DNA from: Microbacterium sp. LWH7-1.2
GTDB lineage: Bacteria > Actinomycetota > Actinomycetes > Actinomycetales > Microbacteriaceae
Direction: 5' to 3'
Assembly (NCBI RefSeq): GCF_038397755.1
Contig: NZ_CP151637.1
Coordinates: forward strand, 4,340,001 to 4,404,000
Length of the DNA: 64,000 nucleotides
Shown here: positions 642 through 30,362 of the stretch, one piece after another
Position numbering within the stretch: the stretch's first letter is position 1
How the letters are laid out: the number at the start of each line of letters is the position of its first letter
Notes under the pieces: generated by a model
What the model was told of the DNA's origin: nothing
Seen by the model: only the letters and a program-made list of their open reading frames with translations
The model's database searches: none
Translations under genes and position numbers: made by a program

Positions 642-1751
642 CTACTCGGCGACGATCAGGTCGATCGCGGCGTTGACCTGCTCGCGGAGCGTGTCGGAGA
701 TCGGCGCGTTGCCGGCCGCGGCGGCGGCCGCGTCCTGGCCCTCGGCGCTGGCCACGTACTGGAGGTAGCCCTTGACGATCGGCGCGACGGCCGCGTCGGC
801 GTACTCCTGGCACGCGATCATGTAGCTGACGAGGACGATCGGGTACACGCCAGCGGCGTCCGAGGTGCGGTCGAGCTCGATCGCGAGGTCGCCCTCGCCA
901 CGGCCCTGCTCGAACGGCGACTCGTCGACGATCGCGGCGGCGGCCTCGGGCGAGTACTCGACGAACTCGTCGCCGACCTGGATGGCGGCGGTCGACAGGC
1001 CCTCTTCGGCGGCGCGCGACGCGTCGGCGTAGCCGATGGTGCCGTTGCCGCCCGCGACGGCCGAGACGACACCCGAGGTGCCCTGGGCGGCCTCGCCGCT
1101 GGAGAGCGGCCACACGCCGTCGGGCTCGTTGGTCCAGACGTCGCCGGCGGCCTGGAAGAGGTAGTCGGTGAAGTTCTCGGTGGTGCCCGAGTCGTCGGCA
1201 CGGTGCACGGGCGTCACGGCCAGGTCGGGGAGCGTCGCGTCAGGGTTGAGCGCGGCGATCGCCGGGTCGTTCCAGTTCGTGATGGTGCCGGCGAACAGGC
1301 CCGCGGCGGTCGCGGCGTCGAGGTTCAGCGCGTCCACGCCCTCGACGTTGAAGATGATCGCGATCGGCGAGATGTAGGTGGGGAGCTCGATGATGCCCGA
1401 GCCGTCGACGCACGCGTCGAACGGGCCGGCCTCGATCTCCTCCACCTTGAAAGCACGGTCGGAGCCCGCGAACGGGAAGGCGCCCGCCTGGAACGACTCG
1501 CGGCCCGCGCCCGAGCCGGACGGGTCGTAGTTGATGGTGACGTCGGGGTTCGCCGTCTGGAAGCCGGAGGTCCAGGCCTGAACCGCGACCTCCTGCGCCG
1601 ACGAGCCGCCGCCCGCGATCTCGCCGGACAGGGTCGACTCGGGCGCGTCGGTGGTGTCGCCGCCGGGGGTCTCGTTCGAGGCGCAGCCGGCGAGAGCGAG
1701 AGCCGCGACTGCGGCGACAGCGCCCACCTGGGCGATGCGAGAGATCTTCAC
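642..1751 (-). CDS. pstS: Phosphate-binding lipoprotein PstS
   Basis: Extracellular phosphate-capturing component of the Pst importer, 369 residues. The N terminus is a lipoprotein signal: MKISR, a hydrophobic core, then lipobox LALAGC with Cys23 as the lipidated residue. The mature part shows PstS features such as GGGSSAQEVAVQAW, the phosphate-contact segment YDPSGSGAGRESF, and HRADDSGTTENFTDYL. Length is normal for actinobacterial PstS. It is the first gene of the operon, and a PHO box lies about 115-130 bases upstream, so induction by phosphate starvation through SenX3/RegX3 (encoded at 18-20.5 kb) is likely. Confidence 0.96.
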   Translation of the reverse strand: MKISRIAQVGAVAAVAALALAGCASNETPGGDTTDAPESTLSGEIAGGGSSAQEVAVQAWTSGFQTANPDVTINYDPSGSGAGRESFQAGAFPFAGSDRAFKVEEIEAGPFDACVDGSGIIELPTYISPIAIIFNVEGVDALNLDAATAAGLFAGTITNWNDPAIAALNPDATLPDLAVTPVHRADDSGTTENFTDYLFQAAGDVWTNEPDGVWPLSSGEAAQGTSGVVSAVAGGNGTIGYADASRAAEEGLSTAAIQVGDEFVEYSPEAAAAIVDESPFEQGRGEGDLAIELDRTSDAAGVYPIVLVSYMIACQEYADAAVAPIVKGYLQYVASAEGQDAAAAAAGNAPISDTLREQVNAAIDLIVAE

Positions 1752-1865: not shown

Positions 1866-1883
1866 GGTGAACGGAAGGTGAAC
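1866..1883 (-). promoter_or_regulatory. PHO box upstream of pstS
   Basis: Read on the minus strand, two exact GTTCACC heptamers (1877-1883, then 1866-1872) are spaced by 11 bases. This matches the direct-repeat-unit PHO box bound by PhoP or RegX3 in actinobacteria (consensus about G[G/T]TCAYYYR[G/C]G repeated every 11 bp). It lies at the right place for activating pstS. Confidence 0.8.
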
Positions 1884-1990: not shown

Positions 1991-2668
1991 ATGAGCAAGA
2001 CCACGAAGGCCCAGCGTAAGGCGCTCGACGCGATCGATGACGCGGAGTCGGCGGCGAAGAAAGCCCGACGCGTCGCGAAGAGCCTGCCGGGCAAGAGCGC
2101 CAAGAAGTTGCGCGAGGTCGCGGCCGAGACGGTCGACGACGTGGACCTGTCGAAGAAGGCCATTCGCAAGAACCCGCGCAAGGTCGCGGAGAAGGCGCGT
2201 CGCGCGGAAGAGCGGGTGCGCAAGGCCACCCGCGTCGCCGTCGCGAAGGCGGAGAAGAAGGCACGCCTGCGCGCGGAGGCCGAGCGCGCCGCAGCCGAGG
2301 CTGCGAAAGCCGCCGAAGAGGTCAAGGCGCATGCCGCAGAGGCCAAGGCGCTGAAGAAGGCGGCCGCCAAGGCAGAGCGCTCGGCCGCCAAGGCCGAGCA
2401 GGAGGCGCTCGAGGCCGACCGCGTGCTGGAGGCCGAGCTCACGTCCGGTGAGGCCGAGACGGATGCTGCCGCCACCGCCGCGCCGGAGCCGGCCGCTGCA
2501 GAAGCCACGCCGAAGCCGGGGACCTCCCCGACCGCGGCTGCCACCGCATCCGCCTCCTCCGATCTGGACACGCTCACCGTCGCGCAGCTGCGCGAGCGCG
2601 CGCGTGCCACGGGCAGGACCGGCTACTCGCGGCTCACCAAGGCCCAGCTGATCGCCCTGCTGTCCTGA
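1991..2668 (+). CDS. Lys/Ala-rich coiled protein with C-terminal Rho-N/SAP-like motif
   Basis: A 225-residue highly basic, alanine- and lysine-rich protein (repeated KKA, AEKA, AAKAE), predicted as a long alpha-helical or coiled rod. It ends in about 35 residues, LDTLTVAQLRERARATG followed by YSRLTKAQLIALLS, resembling the Rho-termination-factor N-terminal/SAP helix-loop-helix that binds nucleic acid. The start at ATG 1991 is preferred to the in-frame ATG at 1910 because AAGG lies just upstream and the 27 extra residues look non-native. It ends one base before the synthetase gene start, so the two are probably cotranscribed. A nucleoid- or RNA-binding role is inferred; no close functional homologue is recognised. 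Confidence 0.7.
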   Translation: MSKTTKAQRKALDAIDDAESAAKKARRVAKSLPGKSAKKLREVAAETVDDVDLSKKAIRKNPRKVAEKARRAEERVRKATRVAVAKAEKKARLRAEAERAAAEAAKAAEEVKAHAAEAKALKKAAAKAERSAAKAEQEALEADRVLEAELTSGEAETDAAATAAPEPAAAEATPKPGTSPTAAATASASSDLDTLTVAQLRERARATGRTGYSRLTKAQLIALLS

Positions 2669-2669
2669 C

Positions 2670-5600
2670 GTGCGCTCGATCGATTCGCCGCCGGGCGTGC
2701 CGGCACCGCTGGATCGCATCGACGCGGCACCGGAGCCGCGCACGCTGCTGGACATCCTCCGCGCAACCGTGCAGCGCACGCCGGAGGCCTCGGCTCTCGA
2801 CGACGGCTCGGGCGCGCTCAGCTACCGCGAGCTCATGGCGCGCGTCGCACGCACCGCCGCCCTGCTGCACGAGGCGGGCGTCCGCCGCGGCGACCGCGTC
2901 GGGGTGCGGATGCCCTCGGGCTCGAAGGAGCTGTACATCTCGATCCTCGGTATCATCGCCGCGGGCGCGGCGTATGTCCCGGTGGACGCCGACGACTCCG
3001 ACGAGCGGGCGCGGCTCGTGTTCGGCGAAGCGCACGTGCACGGTGTGATCGGCGAGGGCGGCGCGTACGTCCCCGCAGCCGCCGCGGATGGCCAGGAATC
3101 AGCCGCGCTGTTCGGCGGCGCGGCGCCCCATCCGAGCACTCACGCGATCGTCACGGTGCCGCCGCCGACGATCGACGACGACGCGTGGATCATCTTCACC
3201 TCGGGGTCGACGGGGGTGCCCAAGGGCGTGGCGGTCTCGCATCGCTCCGCCGCGGCCTTCGTCGACGCCGAGGCGCGCCTGTTCCTGCAAGGCGCGCCGC
3301 TCGGCCCTGGCGACCGCGTGCTGGCGGGTCTGTCCGTCGCCTTCGACGCCTCGTGCGAGGAGATGTGGCTCGCGTGGCGGCACGGAGCGTGTCTCGTGCC
3401 CGCGCCGCGCTCGCTGGTGCGATCGGGCGAGGACCTGGCGCCGTGGCTCATCCGTCAGGCGATCACCGTCGTCTCGACGGTGCCGACGCTCGCCGCGATG
3501 TGGCCGGCCGACGCGATCGAGAACGTGCGGCTGCTCATCTTCGGCGGCGAGGCGTGCCCGCCGGAGCTCGTCGCGCGACTCGTCGCCGACGGCCGCGAGG
3601 TGTGGAACACGTACGGCCCCACCGAAGCCACCGTCGTGGCCTGCGCGGCGCTCCTGGACGGCGAGGGACCGGTGCGCATCGGGCTGCCGCTCGACGGCTG
3701 GGCGCTGGCGGTCGTCGACGGCCACGACCGGCAGGTCGAGCCCGGGGGGCTCGGAGAGCTCATCATCGGCGGCGTGGGCCTGGCCCGCTACCTCGATCCC
3801 GTCAAGGACCTCGAGAAGTACGCGCCGATGCCGACCCTGGGCTGGGACCGCGCCTACCGTTCCGGCGACCTGGTTCGCTACGAGCCGGAGGGGCTCCTGT
3901 TCCAGGGCCGTGCCGATGACCAGGTCAAGGTCGGCGGCCGTCGCATCGAGCTCGGCGAGGTCGAGAACGCCCTGCAGGAACTGGCGGGCGTGACGGGCGC
4001 CAGCGCCGCCGTGCGCATGAGTGATGCGGGTGTGCCCGTCCTCGTCGGCTACCTCGTTGTCGACGGCGAACTCGACCGCGCCGCCGCCCGCGCCCATCTC
4101 GCCGAGCGGCTGGCCGCCGGCGTCATGCCTGTCCTTGCCGTCGTGCCCGACCTCCCGGTGCGCACCTCCGGCAAGGTCGATCGCGCCGCGCTGCCGTGGC
4201 CGCTGCCCGACCTCGACATCCCCCGGGCCGATCTGAGCCCCGACGAGGCGTGGCTCGCCGACCAGTGGCAGGCGGTGCTGGGACTTCCGGTGCCCGACCG
4301 CAAGGCCGACTTCTTCGACCTCGGCGGCGGCTCGCTCGCCGCGGCCCAGCTCGTCTCGCGCATCCGCGCCCGCGTGCCCGATTTCTCGGTCGCCGACATC
4401 TACGACGTGCCGCGTCTCGGGGCGATGGCGAAGGCGCTGCAGCCGTTCCTGTCGCGCGAAGAGGCGGGGGACTTCCGGATGCCGGAGCCCACGCCCCGCA
4501 CCACGCAGTGGGTGCAGTCGCTCCTCGGCGCGCCGCTGTTCATCCTCTCCGGCGTCCGGTGGCTCCTGTATCTGCTGACCGCCGGGACGATCCTGCAGCT
4601 CTTCCCCGGATTCGATGCGCTCCCCTCGGCGCCCTGGTGGCTGCTGATCATCGGTCTCGTCCTCTTCGCGACGCCGTTCGGCCGCATGGCGATCGCCGCG
4701 GCATCCGCCCGACTGCTCCTCGCGCGACTGCGTCCCGGGGACTACCCGCGCGGCGGCTCGGTGCACCTGAGGCTCTGGCTCGCCGAGCAGATCTCCGACC
4801 AGGTCGACGCCGTCGGTCTCGCCGGCGCGCCGTGGGTTTCGTACTACGCGCGCGCCCTCGGCGCCCGCATCGGCACGGATGTCGACATGCACACCCTTCC
4901 GCCGATCACCGGGATGCTGAAGGTCGGCGATCGTGCGTCGATCGAGCCCGAGGTCGACCTCAGCGGCTACTGGATCGACGGCGACCTCGTGCGGATCGGC
5001 GAGGTGCGCATCGGCGCCGACGCGACCGTCGGCACGCGCAGCACCCTCGCGCCCGGCACGCGGATCGGCCAGCGGGCCGAGATCGCGCCCGGCTCGGCGG
5101 TCTTCGGCCGCGTGCGCGCGAACCAGTCGTGGGCGGGCTCGCCCGCCGTGCGCGTCGGCGGCACGACCGAGGGGTGGCCGGCCGGGCGCCCGCGCGCCGC
5201 GCGCCGATGGCTCTGGGCGTACGCCGCATCGGCGATGGCCCTGGGCCTCCTCCCCATCGTGAGCTTCGCCGCCGGCGGTGTGGTGCTCGCGATCGGCATG
5301 CGCGGTGCCCCGGACCTCGGCAGTGCGCTCGGCGCCACGCTCGTCTGGCTCGTGCCGGCGGTGCTCCTGACCGGCGTCGTCTACGCCGGCGCGGTCGTGC
5401 TGGGCGTCCGCTTGGCGGCCATCGGGCTCCACGAGGGCACGCACCCGGTGCGTAGCCGCATCGGGTGGCAGGCGTGGACCACGGAGCGCCTGCTCGACTC
5501 CGCCCGCACGGTCCTGTTCCCGCTCTACTCGAGCCTGTTCACCCCGGTCTGGCTGCGCCTGCTCGGGGCGCGAGTCGGACACGGTGTCGAGGCATCCACC

Positions 5601-6617
5601 GTTCTCCTCATCCCGGCGATGACCCGCATCGAGGATGGCGCGTTCCTCGCCGACGACACAATGGTCGCCTCCTACGAGATGCGGGGCGGATGGCTGCGGC
5701 TCGGCGAGGTGCGCATCGGCAAGCGCGCGTTCCTCGGCAACTCCGGCATGGCATCGCCCGGGCACACCGTGCCGAAGGACGGCCTCGTCGCGGTGCTCTC
5801 GGCCGCGCCGGTCAAGGCGAAGGCGGGCTCGTCGTGGCTCGGCTCACCGGCGACGCGCCTGCGCCGCCGGCCGAACGAAAGCGACGCGAGCCGCACCTAC
5901 AACCCGCCGGCGTCTCTGCGTGTCGCACGGTCGCTGTGGGAGATCTGCCGCTTCATCCCCGTCGTCGTCACGTGCGGCCTCGGGCTGCTCGTGCTGTTCG
6001 CACTCGCCGCGCTCGTCGACACGGTCGGTCCGTGGATCGCTCTCCTGCTGTCGGGCTTCGTGCTCCTCACGGCCGGTGCGGTCGCCGCGGGCATCTCGAC
6101 CGCTGCGAAGTGGCTGTTCGTCGGCCCGATCCGGGCGGGGGAGCAGCCGCTGTGGTCGAGTTTCGTGTGGCGCACCGAGGTGTCGGACACCTTCACCGAG
6201 ATGCTCGCGGCGCCGTGGTTCGCGCGCGCGGCCGCCGGCACGCCGGCGCTCGCGGTGTGGCTCAGAAGCCTCGGCGCCCGCATCGGGCGCGGCGTGTGGT
6301 GCGAGAGCTACTGGCTGCCCGAGCCCGACCTCGTGACGCTCGGCGAGGCGTCCACGGTCAACCGGGGGTGCGTCGTGCAGACGCACCTGTTCCATGATCG
6401 AATCATGAGCATGGACACCGTCGAACTCGAACCCGGTGCGACACTCGGCCCGCACAGCGTGATCCTCCCGGCCGCCTCGATCGGGGCCCACGCCACCGTC
6501 GGCCCCGCGTCCCTCGTGATGCGCGGCGAGAGCGTGCCCGTCGGCTCCCGCTGGAGCGGCAACCCGATCGGGCCTTGGCGCGCGGTCACCGTCCGGGCGT
6601 ATCAGTCGACGTCGTGA
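2670..6617 (+). CDS. Pls/PosA-type nonribosomal peptide synthetase (polyamino-acid synthetase)
   Basis: A 1315-residue membrane NRPS with the architecture of epsilon-poly-L-lysine synthetase (Pls, about 1319 aa). Adenylation domain about 25-510: IIFTSGSTGVPKG near 174, FDASCEEMW at 225-233, NTYGPTEAT, and the catalytic Lys of TSGKVDR near 502. Carrier domain about 525-595, with DFFDLGGGSLAAAQLV carrying the phosphopantetheine Ser. Three pairs of membrane helices then alternate with three C-terminal acyltransferase-like domains rich in hexapeptide-type repeats (about 720-850, 970-1075 and 1190-1310). There is no thioesterase or standard condensation domain. GTG start; the stop overlaps the M1 peptidase start by four bases. 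The family is known to make amino-acid homopolymers through side-chain amide bonds. The product here is unknown, but Glu230 in the substrate pocket suggests a basic amino acid. Confidence 0.88.
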   Translation: MRSIDSPPGVPAPLDRIDAAPEPRTLLDILRATVQRTPEASALDDGSGALSYRELMARVARTAALLHEAGVRRGDRVGVRMPSGSKELYISILGIIAAGAAYVPVDADDSDERARLVFGEAHVHGVIGEGGAYVPAAAADGQESAALFGGAAPHPSTHAIVTVPPPTIDDDAWIIFTSGSTGVPKGVAVSHRSAAAFVDAEARLFLQGAPLGPGDRVLAGLSVAFDASCEEMWLAWRHGACLVPAPRSLVRSGEDLAPWLIRQAITVVSTVPTLAAMWPADAIENVRLLIFGGEACPPELVARLVADGREVWNTYGPTEATVVACAALLDGEGPVRIGLPLDGWALAVVDGHDRQVEPGGLGELIIGGVGLARYLDPVKDLEKYAPMPTLGWDRAYRSGDLVRYEPEGLLFQGRADDQVKVGGRRIELGEVENALQELAGVTGASAAVRMSDAGVPVLVGYLVVDGELDRAAARAHLAERLAAGVMPVLAVVPDLPVRTSGKVDRAALPWPLPDLDIPRADLSPDEAWLADQWQAVLGLPVPDRKADFFDLGGGSLAAAQLVSRIRARVPDFSVADIYDVPRLGAMAKALQPFLSREEAGDFRMPEPTPRTTQWVQSLLGAPLFILSGVRWLLYLLTAGTILQLFPGFDALPSAPWWLLIIGLVLFATPFGRMAIAAASARLLLARLRPGDYPRGGSVHLRLWLAEQISDQVDAVGLAGAPWVSYYARALGARIGTDVDMHTLPPITGMLKVGDRASIEPEVDLSGYWIDGDLVRIGEVRIGADATVGTRSTLAPGTRIGQRAEIAPGSAVFGRVRANQSWAGSPAVRVGGTTEGWPAGRPRAARRWLWAYAASAMALGLLPIVSFAAGGVVLAIGMRGAPDLGSALGATLVWLVPAVLLTGVVYAGAVVLGVRLAAIGLHEGTHPVRSRIGWQAWTTERLLDSARTVLFPLYSSLFTPVWLRLLGARVGHGVEASTVLLIPAMTRIEDGAFLADDTMVASYEMRGGWLRLGEVRIGKRAFLGNSGMASPGHTVPKDGLVAVLSAAPVKAKAGSSWLGSPATRLRRRPNESDASRTYNPPASLRVARSLWEICRFIPVVVTCGLGLLVLFALAALVDTVGPWIALLLSGFVLLTAGAVAAGISTAAKWLFVGPIRAGEQPLWSSFVWRTEVSDTFTEMLAAPWFARAAAGTPALAVWLRSLGARIGRGVWCESYWLPEPDLVTLGEASTVNRGCVVQTHLFHDRIMSMDTVELEPGATLGPHSVILPAASIGAHATVGPASLVMRGESVPVGSRWSGNPIGPWRAVTVRAYQSTS

Positions 6618-7945
6618 TCGGGCCCGATCCGTACACGCCGCGCAGCGGCGACGCCTCGTTCGACGTCGTCTCGTACGACCTCGATCTGCGCTATCGCGTC
6701 CCCACGAACCGGCTCGAGGGGACCGCGCTCGTCAACGCCGTCGCGAACGAGCGGACCCGCTCGGTGCGCCTCGACCTGATCGGCCTGCGCGCGTCGCGGG
6801 TGCGGGTGGACGGCGACGCGCGGACGAAGTTCGCACAGGATGCCGCGGGCCTGCGTGTCACGCCGCCGCAGGCGCTCGAGGTGGGCGAGGAGTTCTCCAT
6901 CGAGGTGCGTTACGCGGGGGCGCCGCGGCCCCGCCGGTCACGGTGGGGCACGATCGGGTGGGAGGAGCTCGAGGACGGGGCGCTCGTCGCCTCCCAGCCG
7001 GTGGGCGCGCCGACGTGGTTCCCGTGCAACGACCGCCCTGACGACAGGGCCCGGTACCGCATCGCGGTCACGACGGACGCCGAGTACGCGGTTGCCGCGA
7101 CGGGGGTGCCCCGGCCGCCGGTGCGCAGCGGCGCGCTCAGGCGCTGGGAGTTCGCGTCGGAGGTGCCCACGGCGACATACCTCGCCGCCGTGCACATCGG
7201 CGCGTACCGCGAGAGCGCGATCGGACCCGTGCGGTTGATGGCACCCGCGCCGCTCGTGACCGCTGCGCGGCGATGGTTCTCGGACGCGCCGCGCATCGTG
7301 GAGTGCTTCGAGGGAGCGTTCGGCCCGTATCCGCAGGAAGGCTGCACGGTCGTCGTCACCGCCGACCCGCTGGAGATTCCGCTGGAGGCACAGGGGCTCG
7401 TGGTGTTCGGTGCGAACCACTTCGAGCCCGAGGCCGCGCGCCTGGTTCCGCACGAGATCGCCCATCAGTGGTTCGGCAACAGCGTCGGCGTCGAGCGGTG
7501 GCGCGACATCTGGCTGAACGAGGGGTTCGCCTGCTACGCGGAGTGGCTGTGGTCGGAGGCCTCCGGCGGGGCCGATATCGCCACGCTCGCCGACGAGCAT
7601 CACGCGCGCCTCCGGGCGCTGCCCCAGGACCTCGTGATCTCCGACCCCGGTCCCGCGCTCATGTTCGACGACCGCGTCTACAAGCGCGGCGCACTGACGC
7701 TCGAGGCCCTGCGCCGGACGGTCGGCGCCGAGGTGTTCGCCGACCTGCTCCACACGTGGGTGCGTGAGCACCGCCACGCGCTCGCCACCACCGCGGCTTT
7801 CCGCGACTGCGTCGCGCGGGTCGCGGGTGCGGCAGCGGCCGACGTGCTCGGCGACTGGCTCGACGCCGCGGCCCTCCCGCCGCTGCCCGACCGGCTGCCG
7901 GCGCCCGCGGTGCGACCGCTCAGGCTGCCGGGCTCTGGGGACTGA
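6614..7945 (+). CDS. M1-family zinc metallopeptidase, coupled to the Pls-type synthetase
   Basis: A 443-residue aminopeptidase-N-like metalloenzyme. The zinc motif HEIAHQWFGN (His280, Glu281, His284) is followed 18 residues later by the third ligand Glu303 in NEGFACYAEW, the standard M1 spacing. An N-terminal beta domain with WFPCNDRP precedes it. The exopeptidase motif is the variant EAQGLVVFG. No signal peptide is visible. The GTG start at 6614 is preferred because it gives a 4-base overlap with the upstream stop and implies translational coupling; an in-frame ATG lies at 6575. Zinc aminopeptidases that degrade epsilon-polylysine are known in producers, so this one may trim or protect against the synthetase product (inference). 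Its 3' end overlaps the convergent phosphopantetheinyl transferase by 26 bases. Confidence 0.88.
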   Translation: MIGPDPYTPRSGDASFDVVSYDLDLRYRVPTNRLEGTALVNAVANERTRSVRLDLIGLRASRVRVDGDARTKFAQDAAGLRVTPPQALEVGEEFSIEVRYAGAPRPRRSRWGTIGWEELEDGALVASQPVGAPTWFPCNDRPDDRARYRIAVTTDAEYAVAATGVPRPPVRSGALRRWEFASEVPTATYLAAVHIGAYRESAIGPVRLMAPAPLVTAARRWFSDAPRIVECFEGAFGPYPQEGCTVVVTADPLEIPLEAQGLVVFGANHFEPEAARLVPHEIAHQWFGNSVGVERWRDIWLNEGFACYAEWLWSEASGGADIATLADEHHARLRALPQDLVISDPGPALMFDDRVYKRGALTLEALRRTVGAEVFADLLHTWVREHRHALATTAAFRDCVARVAGAAAADVLGDWLDAAALPPLPDRLPAPAVRPLRLPGSGD

Positions 7946-8462
7946 GCACCGCGACGCTCACGAGGATGCCGGGCGGCCCGGGCGCATCCCACCCGATGTA
8001 GACCTCGCCATCGGGAACGGCCGCCGTCCAGCCGCCCGCCGCCGCCGAGACGACCACCGTCGCGGGCTCGACGCGCAGTCCCCGGCCGTCCGCCTTCAAC
8101 GCCGCCTCGACGCGGACCCAGTCGCGGACGGTGGCCTCGCCGTCGCCGAGCACGCCCGCCATGCCCGCCGCGTCCCGGCGCACATCGTGCTCGGGCTCCG
8201 CGTCGACGCCGAGCGCCGCCGCGTCCCGCGAGGCCGCCACAGCCACGATGGCGTACCCGCCCGCGTACGTGACACTCGCGATGAACGGCGCCCGGGAGAC
8301 GATCACCGGACCATGCGGACCGCCGCAGCGCGAGCACGCATTGCTCAGCTCGGCGCCGGCGGGCAGCATCCCCGTCAGCAGCCGCCACGCGTGCTCGCGT
8401 CGGGGCGGGCGGGGCGGCACCTCGGCCCACGCGACGTCGACGATCGACCTCGCGGGCGTCAT
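7920..8462 (-). CDS. 4'-phosphopantetheinyl transferase superfamily protein
   Basis: 180 residues. It transfers 4'-phosphopantetheine from CoA to the conserved Ser of carrier domains. The two family signatures are visible: GVDAEPEHD (Mg2+/CoA-binding Asp, normally GVDxE) and WVRVEAALKADGRG (normally WxxKEAxxKxxG; here Arg-Val replaces the usual Arg-Lys context). It is short for a Sfp-type enzyme but complete. ATG 8462 overlaps the upstream mutT1-like stop by one base (TGATG), so it is at the end of the ppk-mutT1 operon. It is also next to the Pls-type synthetase, whose carrier domain is its likely substrate (inference). Confidence 0.8.
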   Translation of the reverse strand: MTPARSIVDVAWAEVPPRPPRREHAWRLLTGMLPAGAELSNACSRCGGPHGPVIVSRAPFIASVTYAGGYAIVAVAASRDAAALGVDAEPEHDVRRDAAGMAGVLGDGEATVRDWVRVEAALKADGRGLRVEPATVVVSAAAGGWTAAVPDGEVYIGWDAPGPPGILVSVAVLSPQSPAA

Positions 8463-9400
8463 CACACCTTCGGCTCGTGCGTCTCGATCGTGACGATTCC
8501 CGAGCCCGGGTTCTCGACCGACAGGTGCACCACCGAGAACGCGGCGGGCTCCAGGGCCGAGGCGCTGCCGAGGTACGAGCCCCGCAGCGTGCCGGTTGCG
8601 AGGGCGAGCTCGCTCAGGATGTCGGGGAGGACGGGCCCGTGGGTGCACAGCACGGCGGCCTTGCGCGAACGCACCCGCTCGCCGATCACTGCGCGCGCGT
8701 CGGACTTGCCGTCCTCCCACGCGTCCTGGCTGATCAGCTTGGTCGTGTCGATCTCGCGGCCGATCGCGGCCGACAGCGGTGCGACGGTCTTGACGCAGCG
8801 CACCGCGGGGCTCGACACGATCCGCCGGACACCGAAGGCCAGGAGGGGTCCGACGATGGAGGCCGCCTGCCGGCGGCCGCGCGTGGCGAGCGGCCGCGCG
8901 GCATCCTTCCCCTGCCATTCCTCGCGGGCGACCGCCTTGGCGTGCCGGAGGGCGACGATCGGGAAGGTTCGCAGCACGCCCTCGTCGATGAGCCGGTGGA
9001 AGTTCTCCATGATCTCGGCGTCGACGGGATAGCTGAGCCGCTTCAACGCCTTCTTGGGCGAGACCCATTCGAGCGCCGCGATCTCCTTGTTCGGCACGAA
9101 CGCCGACGCGCGGATCGCGGCATCCGTCGCCTCCGCGGCCCAGTAGTGCACGATCTTGGTGCGCTTGCTGGGCAGCCGGTAGCGCGACACCCCGACGGGT
9201 ACGCCGAGGGAGACACGGATGCCGGTCTCTTCGTGGATCTCGCGCACCGCCGTCTCGGCGAGCATTTCGCCGGGGTCGACCTTGCCCTTGGGAAGCGTGA
9301 CGTCGCGGTACTTCGTGCGGTGGATCAGGAGCACGCGCAGCTTGTCGTCGACGACACGCCAGACGACGCCCCCGGCCGCGTAGACGGCCGTCTCGGTCAT
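8462..9400 (-). CDS. mutT1: Nudix hydrolase/histidine phosphatase fusion (MutT1-like)
   Basis: 312 residues. Residues 1-135 are a Nudix domain with a complete Nudix box (Gly39, Glu45, then REIHEETG at 53-60). Residues about 145-300 are a histidine-phosphatase domain starting with the phosphate-accepting motif ALRHAKA. This two-domain layout is that of mycobacterial MutT1, which hydrolyses 8-oxo-dGTP and diadenosine polyphosphates. ATG 9400 overlaps the ppk stop by four bases (ATGA), so the two are translationally coupled. The same ppk-mutT1 pairing occurs in Mycobacterium. The substrate in this organism is inferred from the family. Confidence 0.88.
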
Positions 9401-11562
9401 CGCACCGCCCGCGCCCGTCGGCGCCGCTGCACGTTGTTCATCGTCCGGTCCTGGAGGTCGACGAGCGGCTTGTCCTCGTCGTCCCGGCTGTGCCTCGTCC
9501 ATTCGCCGTCGGGCTGCAGGTGCCACGAGCTCGTCGAATCGCTCATCGACAGCGTGAAGAGGTCGTTGACCTCCTTGATGTGCGCCGGGGTCGAGACCCT
9601 CACGAGCGCCTCGACGCGGCGGTCGAGGTTGCGGTGCATCATGTCGGCGCTGCCGATGTACACGATCGGGTCGCCGTCGTTGTGGAACGCGAAGATGCGC
9701 GAGTGCTCGAGGTAGCGCCCGAGGACCGAGCGGACCGTGATGTTCTCGCTCATGCCCGCGACTCCGGGCTTCAGCGAGCAGATGCCCCGCACGCATACCT
9801 CGACCTTCACGCCGGCCTGGCTGGCGCGGTAGAGCGCGTCGATGATCTGCTCATCGACGATCGAGTTGACCTTGATGCGCACACTCGCCGGCTTGCCGGC
9901 CAGTGCGTTGCGCCGCTCTTTGTCGATGAGGCGCAGCAGTCCCTTGCGCAGATGCAGGGGCGCGACGAGGATCCGCTTGAACTTCTTCTCGATCGCATAG
10001 CCGCTCAGCTCGTTGAACAGGCGGGTGAGGTCGCGGCCGACCTGGTCGTCGGCCGTGAACAGGCCGAAGTCCTCGTAGATGCGGCTCGTCTTGGGGTTGT
10101 AGTTGCCCGTGCCGACGTGGCTGTAGCTGCGCAGCACGCCGTTCTCCTCGCGGATCACGAGGGCGAGCTTGCAGTGGGTCTTCAAGCCCACCAGGCCGTA
10201 CACGACATGCACGCCCGCCTTCTCGAGCTTGCGCGCCCAGAGGATGTTGTTGGCCTCGTCGAAACGGGCCTTGATCTCGACGAGCGCCAGCACCTGCTTG
10301 CCGGCCTCGGCCGCGTCGATCAGCGCCTCGACGATGGGGCTGTCACCTGATGTGCGGTACAGCGTCTGCTTGATCGCGAGGACATGCGGGTCTTTCGCGG
10401 CCTGCTCGAGGAACGCCTGCACGCTCGTCGCGAACGACTCGTAAGGGTGGTGCACGAGCACGTCGCCCTTGCGGATCGCCGCGAAGATGTCGGGCCGCTC
10501 GTTGTTGTCACCGGGCTGGAACGCCAGCGCGGTCGTGGGCAGATGCGGCTTGTAGTGCAGATCCGGCCGGTCGATGCGGGCCAGATCGAACAGGCCCCGC
10601 AGGTCGAGCGGGCCGGGGAGGCGATAGACCTCCTGCGCGGTGATGTCGAGCTCCTTGATGAGAAGGTCGAGCGTCACGTCGTCCATGTCGTCGGTGATCT
10701 CGAGGCGGATCGGCGGACCGAACCGGCGACGCAGCAGCTCAGCCTCGAGCGCCTGGATGAGGTTCTCGGTCTCGTCCTCCTCGATCGCGACGTCCTCGTT
10801 GCGCGTGAGGCGGAACGCGTGGTGGTCGAGCACCTCCATGCCGGGGAAGAGGTCGTCGAGGTGGTTCGAGATGAGGTCCTCGAGCGGCAGGTAGCGCACG
10901 GTGCCGTCGACGGGAGGCAGCTCGACGAAGCGGGGAAGCATCGGCGGCACCTTGAGGCGCGCGAACTCCTGACGCCCGGTGCGGGCGCTGCGGATGCGGA
11001 TCGCGAGGTTGAGCGACAGACCCGAGATGTACGGGAACGGGTGGGCGGGGTCGACGGCGAGCGGCATGAGGACCGGGAAGACCTGCGCCTGGAAGTAGTC
11101 GTAGAGCGCCTCGCGCTCGGCCTGATCGAGCGACTCGTACGAGACGACCTGGATGCGGGCCTGCGCCATCGCGGGCTTCACGAGCGAGGTCCACGCCTCG
11201 GCGTGGCGCAGCTGCAGCTTGTGCGCCTCCGCCGAGATGTCGGCGAGCACGTCGGCGGGGGAACGGCCCACGTTGGTGGGAAGGGCGAGGCCCGTCACGA
11301 TGCGGCGCTTGAGGCCTGCGACGCGCACCATGAAGAATTCGTCGAGGTTGCTCGCGAAGATCGCGAGGAAGTTCGCACGTTCGAGCGTCGGGAGGTTCGG
11401 ATCCTCGGCGAGCTCCAGCACACGCTGGTTGAACGCGAGCCAGCTCAGCTCGCGATCGAGATACCGGTGGTCGGGAAGCTGCGAGTCGAAGACCTCGGAG
11501 AGGTCGAAGTCGTCGTCGTCCGCGTCGCCCAGGCCGGCGTCGAGCACCTCGGGTTCGATCAT
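9397..11562 (-). CDS. ppk: Polyphosphate kinase
   Basis: 721 residues. PPK1 reversibly polymerises the ATP gamma-phosphate into inorganic polyphosphate. The N-terminal domain opens with [17 protein letters not shown] and [18 protein letters not shown]. The catalytic phospholipase-D-like half has [22 protein letters not shown], and the histidine motif [15 protein letters not shown]. Start ATG 11562 (MIEPEVLD) is chosen because the reading frame further upstream lies in the intergenic gap and in glnR. An acidic Asp-rich N-terminal stretch precedes the domain. It lies 77 bases downstream of glnR and upstream of mutT1. Confidence 0.95.
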
Positions 11563-30138: not shown

Positions 30139-30362
30139 GTTCTCTTCTCCTTCACCGGCAGGTACGTGCCGGACGATCCGTAGTGAGGAATGAGCGGGGG
30201 CTTACCCGCACGCCCGCCATCGGGCGCAAGGAACAGTATGACACGGCGCGCGCGGAGCTTGCGTCTGGGCATTTCCCAGGGTGGCTGACTAGCATCGTGG
30301 ACGGCCGATTTCCCGTCTGGCCCCGCCGGATCACCGGCCCACTTTCCGCCCCGAGAGGTTCC

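Follow-up and report, generated by a model that had tools for sequence, protein, structure and literature searches.

The locus described here raises the question of which product would come from a large synthetase gene that overlaps the gene of a zinc peptidase, and under which control this pair stands. Both genes lie on a 64,000-nucleotide stretch of DNA from Microbacterium sp. LWH7-1.2 (the window; bases 4340001-4404000 of a 4.45-Mb genome that consists of a single contig and whose completeness is rated at 100%). A sequence-only reading of this DNA had described a set for making, activating and degrading a cationic homopolymer of unknown monomer. The coordinates that it gave were exact, and the synthetase, M1 peptidase and convergent open reading frames (ORFs) were all present:

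2670..6617, plus strand: pls, predicted epsilon-poly-L-lysine synthetase, GTG start, 1315 amino acids (domain scans and specificity code DAESIGTVVK)
6614..7945, plus strand: M1 zinc peptidase, PldII-like (Pfam scan, zinc motif and gene order)
7920..8462, minus strand: protein with the fold of phosphopantetheinyl transferases (PPTases), 180 amino acids, convergent to pls and the M1 gene (profile, structure model and co-occurrence)

We put the probability that this cassette makes and turns over epsilon-poly-L-lysine, an antimicrobial polymer, at roughly 0.87. The observations behind this reading are the anatomy, the identity of the lysine code, the position in the tree, the gene order, the PPTase fold and the alternative, empty site. 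By analogy with characterised Pls enzymes, Pls would adenylate L-lysine and load it onto carrier Ser555; its C-terminal units, bound to the membrane, would then link the lysines via the side-chain amine. The translationally coupled, PldII-type M1 peptidase would trim or degrade the polymer and the convergent PPTase-fold protein, judging from its fold and co-occurrence, would most likely install phosphopantetheine on Pls. The anatomy fits the set for making, activating and degrading a cationic homopolymer proposed earlier, but the monomer is not unknown and the pairing of synthetase and peptidase is not new.

Domain scans detected the adenylation (A), carrier (T) and Pls/PosA terminal domains in one protein, in keeping with the polylysine-synthetase layout claimed for it. 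The A domain covers approximately residues 31-514, with the AMP-binding domain at 31-373, and is followed by the T domain at 528-590, a PP-binding domain with FDLGGGS and carrier Ser555. Residues 616-1300 matched TIGR02353, the terminal domain of nonribosomal peptide synthetases of the Pls/PosA family, with 717.7 bits compared to a cut-off of 423.1. Using a simple hydropathy scan, as opposed to a dedicated topology predictor, hydrophobic stretches were seen in the C-terminal part at residues 618-642, 648-679, 848-921 and 1089-1147. This pattern fits three helix pairs without proving six helices, and a further stretch flagged at 87-108 in the A domain is presumably false. The closest entry to Pls in the PDB was 7wew, the A domain of the Streptomyces albulus enzyme deposited as 'Epsilon-poly-L-lysine synthase' (E 8.8e-180), with 64% identity to the window A domain over 483 aligned residues, and the Pls proteins of Microbacterium sp. 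Leaf288 and M. trichothecenolyticum DSM 8608 were 96% identical to that of the window. This type of enzyme is widespread: of 394 genomes sampled from the class, 95 have a strong match to the 7wew sequence. For comparison we used 120 further pls loci, 40 and 80 from two sets of searches, the 80 being from named genomes; among the 120, L097 and L098 seem to duplicate L051 and L057. A further 20 loci were picked out of a class-wide search, along with two paralogues with a DFE code (L253 and L254).

The ten residues of the specificity code were placed in Pls using the motifs of GrsA. They read DAESIGTVVK in the window, in 7wew and in all 120 other Pls. Because this code is identical to that of S. 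albulus Pls, L-lysine is predicted as the monomer, and the unknown monomer of the sequence-only reading is rejected. The Ala at position 2 is that of the lysine enzymes, compared to Met in ornithine and Phe in diaminopropionate and diaminobutyrate enzymes (PMC10522769). A tree of A domains, the comparison suggested beforehand, placed the window Pls with the S. albulus A domain and the lysine-code Pls, not far from polymer-forming enzymes: in 45 rows, 43 DAE rows included the window and 7wew, the two DFE-code paralogues stood outside at 100/100 on long branches, and the partner of the window was M. trichothecenolyticum.

A synthetase of this kind could also form another cationic homopolymer from ornithine, diaminobutyrate, diaminopropionate or beta-lysine, in that several polymers are formed within the Pls/PosA family (PMC10522769) and prediction from a specificity code is indirect. 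We regard such a product as very improbable. The window code matches 7wew in each of its ten residues and is distinct from that of PosA (DMEHNGTVSK), from the beta-lysine type (DGESISVVNK; both PMC10522769) and from L253 and L254, and a coupled peptidase is reported for Pls but for none of the other three synthetases (PMC8117764). PosA, the delta-poly-L-ornithine synthetase of Acinetobacter baumannii, belongs to the same family and shares the architecture of A, T and membrane C-terminal parts with the window Pls but, besides its code, it differs in being encoded by a single-gene operon (PMC10522769). As a side observation, extra ORFs of the TIGR02353 family were seen in L255-L266, from Streptomyces-like and other genomes, with no adenylation domain by the A4 motif pattern; these may be terminal-domain proteins partnered with separate A domains.

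The stop codon of pls (TGA, 6615-6617) and the start codon of the M1 gene (GTG, 6614-6616) have GTGA in common, in agreement with the four-base overlap described earlier. The M1 ORF matched Peptidase_M1 with 84.2 bits and Peptidase_M1_N with 41.5 bits and carries the zinc site HEIAHQW plus a downstream Glu (H280, E281, H284 and E303); HExxH with a Glu 18 residues on was kept in the M1 proteins of 121/121 loci. The pairing with pls is not due to chance, since an M1 gene follows 3' of pls within 3.6 kb in 120/120 further loci. Its start lies within about 140 bases of pls in 114 of them and beyond that in L065, L141, L142, L143, L149 and L162. A start with a 4-nt overlap is available in 80 of the 120, and the nearest start overlaps by one base in 15 more. 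Among the loci picked class-wide, an M1 gene was present near pls in 17 of 20, and none was found near either DFE-code paralogue. In S. albulus, pls and pldII share 4 bp and belong to a single operon (PMC4361855), and PldII, an aminopeptidase, is the main enzyme that degrades epsilon-polylysine (PMC9223678). Judged by gene order, coupling and family, the M1 peptidase of the window very probably corresponds to PldII.

The synthetase-peptidase pair is not new, as it has been published for S. albulus and Corynebacterium variabile, and the window represents one more epsilon-polylysine operon of the Pls-PldII kind. The pls-pldII genes of S. albulus show the same domain order, the same ten-residue code and a downstream peptidase with a 4-bp overlap; compared to them, the window has an A domain of 64% identity and adds the convergent PPTase as well as a setting between pstS and mutT1-ppk. 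For C. variabile, a pls-peptidase operon was reported and Pls was also noted in Microbacterium (PMC8117764). Expression of the C. variabile pls in S. coelicolor gave epsilon-polylysine, and polymer was not observed in C. variabile, which the authors put down ('likely') to a missing trigger signal of unknown nature (PMC8117764). The coryneform Pls resemble the window in having a coupled peptidase outside Streptomyces and a reported lysine-type pocket, whereas the Results and Discussion of that paper mention neither a PPTase nor a PHO box (PMC8117764). In a protein search with a Kribbella Pls, S. albulus Pls was not among the 120 of 7070 matches listed.

The 180-residue protein alone had no match in Pfam or NCBIfam, and its reading as a PPTase could be taken as unsupported. 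This view was overturned by a profile, AlphaFold2 and Foldseek. Half of its pls-linked relatives (17/34) matched PF01648 (E <= 0.01), and a profile of all 34 matched Sfp (E 1e-8) and human PPTase. The AlphaFold2 model had a mean predicted local distance difference test score (pLDDT) of 92.5, and all 34 Foldseek matches at E <= 0.001 were PPTases, at 13-21% identity. According to the model, the protein has a PPTase fold, its role as an enzyme being putative. Cys43, Cys46, His50, Asp87, Trp115, Glu119 and Lys123 are invariant in 34/34 relatives, and the GxDxE motif of Sfp-type PPTases reads GVDAE in the window protein. The WxxKExxxK motif deviates, WVRVEAALK keeping the Trp, the Glu and the last Lys and having Val in place of the first Lys, and for this reason we label the protein 'PPTase-fold' and not a proven Sfp-type member. 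It shares the fold and the core Asp, Glu and Lys with Sfp/PptT-type PPTases, and differs from them by its 180 residues, the low identity in Foldseek and this Val. Of the PPTase predicted next to the pair, the convergent position and the fold thus hold, but not the Lys before the Glu of WxxKEA.

The distribution of this protein follows that of pls in the genus. A strong match to the PPTase profile was found in 36/36 same-genus genomes with pls (E <= 2.7e-29) and in 0/23 without pls (best 6.9e-18); the related genomes are not independent and, since the profile was built largely from pls-linked copies, only the side without pls is a clean test. In genome G058, the PPTase-fold copy lies on a different contig from pls. 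A convergent copy downstream of pls was found by BLAST in 33 of the 40 loci, three of them weak matches, and by profile in 31 of the 80 named loci, the latter in Microbacteriaceae, Micrococcaceae, Humibacillus and one metagenome-assembled genome of the Propionibacteriaceae. Beside pls in the Streptomyces-like loci examined, the PPTase profile had no match. For heterologous production, it would be relevant if pls travels with a PPTase of its own.

Several findings weigh against the cassette as we read it. In all 31 same-genus members, a residue other than Lys precedes Glu119, the Glu of DxE is lost in 9 of the 34 relatives (L045, L051-L054, L057, L058, L060 and L066), and the same genome has a canonical Sfp-type ORF (GVDVE, WTVKES) and an AcpS-like ORF as possible primers of Pls. 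On these grounds, the 180-residue protein could be a decayed or repurposed PPTase fold, for example a carrier-domain binder or a regulator, with the canonical Sfp-type enzyme priming Pls. This appears rather unlikely to us: Asp87, Glu119 and Lys123 are invariant in all relatives, the Lys before Glu119 is kept as KEA in L031, L065 and L070, which are from other genera, and the gene is kept with pls in all 36 same-genus genomes that have pls. Further points against the activating and degrading roles are that no such PPTase was found by pls in Nocardia, Rhodococcus, mycobacterial and Kribbella loci within the flank fetched, that no M1 gene was found near pls in 3 of the 20 class-wide loci (L244, L251 and L252), and that the equation of M1 with PldII leans on gene order, coupling and family.

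The less expected parts of the locus are the co-travelling PPTase fold, the site between pstS and mutT1-ppk, and the PHO boxes. The features around the cassette are as follows:

642..1751, minus strand: pstS, phosphate-binding protein, divergent, context (family scan)
1866..1883, minus strand: PHO box GTTCACC-TTCC-GTTCACC, between pstS and the Rho_N-like gene, facing pstS (motif scan)
1991..2668, plus strand: Rho_N-like gene, Lys/Ala-rich, with a one-base gap before pls (21.9 bits, under the cut-off of 24.9)
8462..9400, minus strand: mutT1-type Nudix/histidine phosphatase gene, context (family scans)
9397..11562, minus strand: ppk, polyphosphate kinase, context (named from reading its sequence, without a family scan)

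The block of pls, M1 and PPTase genes thus sits between pstS and mutT1-ppk. The order pstS, pls, M1, PPTase, mutT1, ppk was found in 17 of the 31 other same-genus pls loci fetched; L048 shows pstS only, and 13 of the 31 are at other sites. A search for mutT1 in 22 of the 23 same-genus genomes without pls, with 20 loci fetched, revealed that pstS directly adjoins mutT1 in 19 of these 20. In genomes whose pls is elsewhere, mutT1 was located in 12 of 13; pstS lies beside it without a cassette in 9 and was not found within 1.5 kb of it in the other 3. Since the cassette is present or absent between pstS and mutT1, or present elsewhere, across same-genus genomes, the block behaves as a unit at alternative sites.

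The genes for ppk, mutT1 and the PPTase-fold protein form a chain of stop/start overlaps, first of 4 bases and then of 1 base. As the ATG of the PPTase-fold gene shares one base with the mutT1 stop (TGATG), co-expression with ppk-mutT1 is possible, and the three genes may be expressed jointly; at its other end, the PPTase-fold gene overlaps the M1 gene by 26 bases. On the opposite side of the cassette, the Rho_N-like motif is C-terminal in the protein encoded at 1991-2668, which ends one base ahead of pls. Using a regular expression derived from the window protein, this motif was found upstream of pls in 21 of the 120 other loci, all of them from Microbacteriaceae and including both kinds of site.

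In Streptomyces and Saccharopolyspora, the PHO box consists of GTTCACC repeats with an 11-base period (PMC4415409, PMC6880422). The box at 1866-1883 is the only perfect match of the genome to GTTCACCNNNCGTTCACC, one further match being found at one mismatch, and lies 107 nt ahead of the Rho_N-like gene that precedes pls. A box was present ahead of pstS in 48/48 loci with a detected pstS, with or without pls. The window box alone therefore says little on pls, and the scan was restricted to pls loci away from pst. For this purpose, we trained a matrix on 19 pstS boxes from genomes without pls and scanned up to 300 bases upstream of pls, accepting at least 10 bits. A box before pls was detected in 29 of 112 such loci, compared to a mean of 0.65 and a maximum of 4 with 300 column-permuted matrices, and was oriented toward pls in 27 loci and away from it in 4. 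Compared to random 400-base pieces, the frequencies were 29/114 loci versus 12/1140 pieces at 10 bits and 22/114 versus 3/1140 at 12 bits, the 114 loci including the two DFE-code paralogues, both without a box. When similar Pls were grouped, 21 of 63 groups had a box at the loosest setting. Chance as the source of these boxes was rejected on the basis of the random pieces, the permuted matrices and the grouping. Named carriers are Rhodococcus, Arthrobacter, Paenarthrobacter, Pseudarthrobacter, Planctomonas, Plantibacter, Agreia, Cryobacterium, Leifsonia, Compostimonas, Tomitella, Williamsia, Nocardia and one unclassified member of the Microbacteriaceae.

We also considered whether these boxes serve a divergent phosphate gene. 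At 10 loci chosen from the 29, the genes upstream of the box belong to transporter, oxidoreductase, glycosylase, aminotransferase, thymidylate synthase, TetR and GTPase families, and a family scan found no phosphate gene family among them; in 7 of the 10, the upstream gene is co-directional with pls and ends before the box. For these 10 loci, this explanation was dropped on these two grounds. Divergent genes upstream of pls were seen in L139 (Rhodococcus zopfii; 6274-7587, aminotransferase class V) and L112 (Plantibacter; 6442-7785, class III).

Phosphate control through the PHO box is a separate and weaker claim than the polylysine function of the cassette. We see about an even chance that many Actinobacteria other than Streptomyces produce epsilon-polylysine in response to phosphate starvation, through a PhoP/RegX3-type regulator acting on PHO boxes, with one Microbacterium lineage having the cassette plus a dedicated PPTase between pstS and mutT1-ppk. 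The opposite view, to which we give slightly less than an even chance, is that the box and the pst-mutT1 site are irrelevant to pls, the box being for pstS alone and the cassette having merely landed there. In keeping with this, the window box is oriented toward pstS and the Rho_N-like gene intervenes before pls, all 19 loci with pstS and without pls have the box, 83 of the 112 loci away from pst lack it before pls, and no box reaching 10 bits was detected close to pls in Streptomyces-like or Kribbella loci, nor in 11 of the 13 same-genus loci with pls at other sites. It is harder to reconcile with the 29 loci away from pst that do have a box, facing pls in 27, and with the co-directional upstream genes, unrelated to phosphate, that end before the box in 7 of the 10 loci examined.

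Side support for a phosphate link comes from the S. albulus high producer WG-608, in which RegX3-SenX3, alkaline phosphatase D and a phosphate-binding protein were up, read by its authors as phosphate being insufficient late in fermentation (PMC10157215), though the Streptomyces-like loci examined showed no PHO box near pls. No statement of a PPTase beside pls or of Pho control of pls was found in those parts of the open-access literature that were searched. The PHO boxes, counted in genomes other than C. variabile, name low phosphate as a candidate trigger for silent pls. If true, such control would connect a polycation that the cell secretes with its phosphate and polyphosphate metabolism, and the apparent silence of such pls genes in ordinary media could be due to it. 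Of the whole locus, this link most deserves testing.

Elsewhere in the window, whose G+C content is 69-73% in 4-kb steps, an msiK cis-regulatory RNA was detected at 30140-30198 on the minus strand with 62 bits. The sole other match to the PHO matrix of at least 12 bits, at 30139-30156, lies at the edge of this RNA and is probably due to chance.

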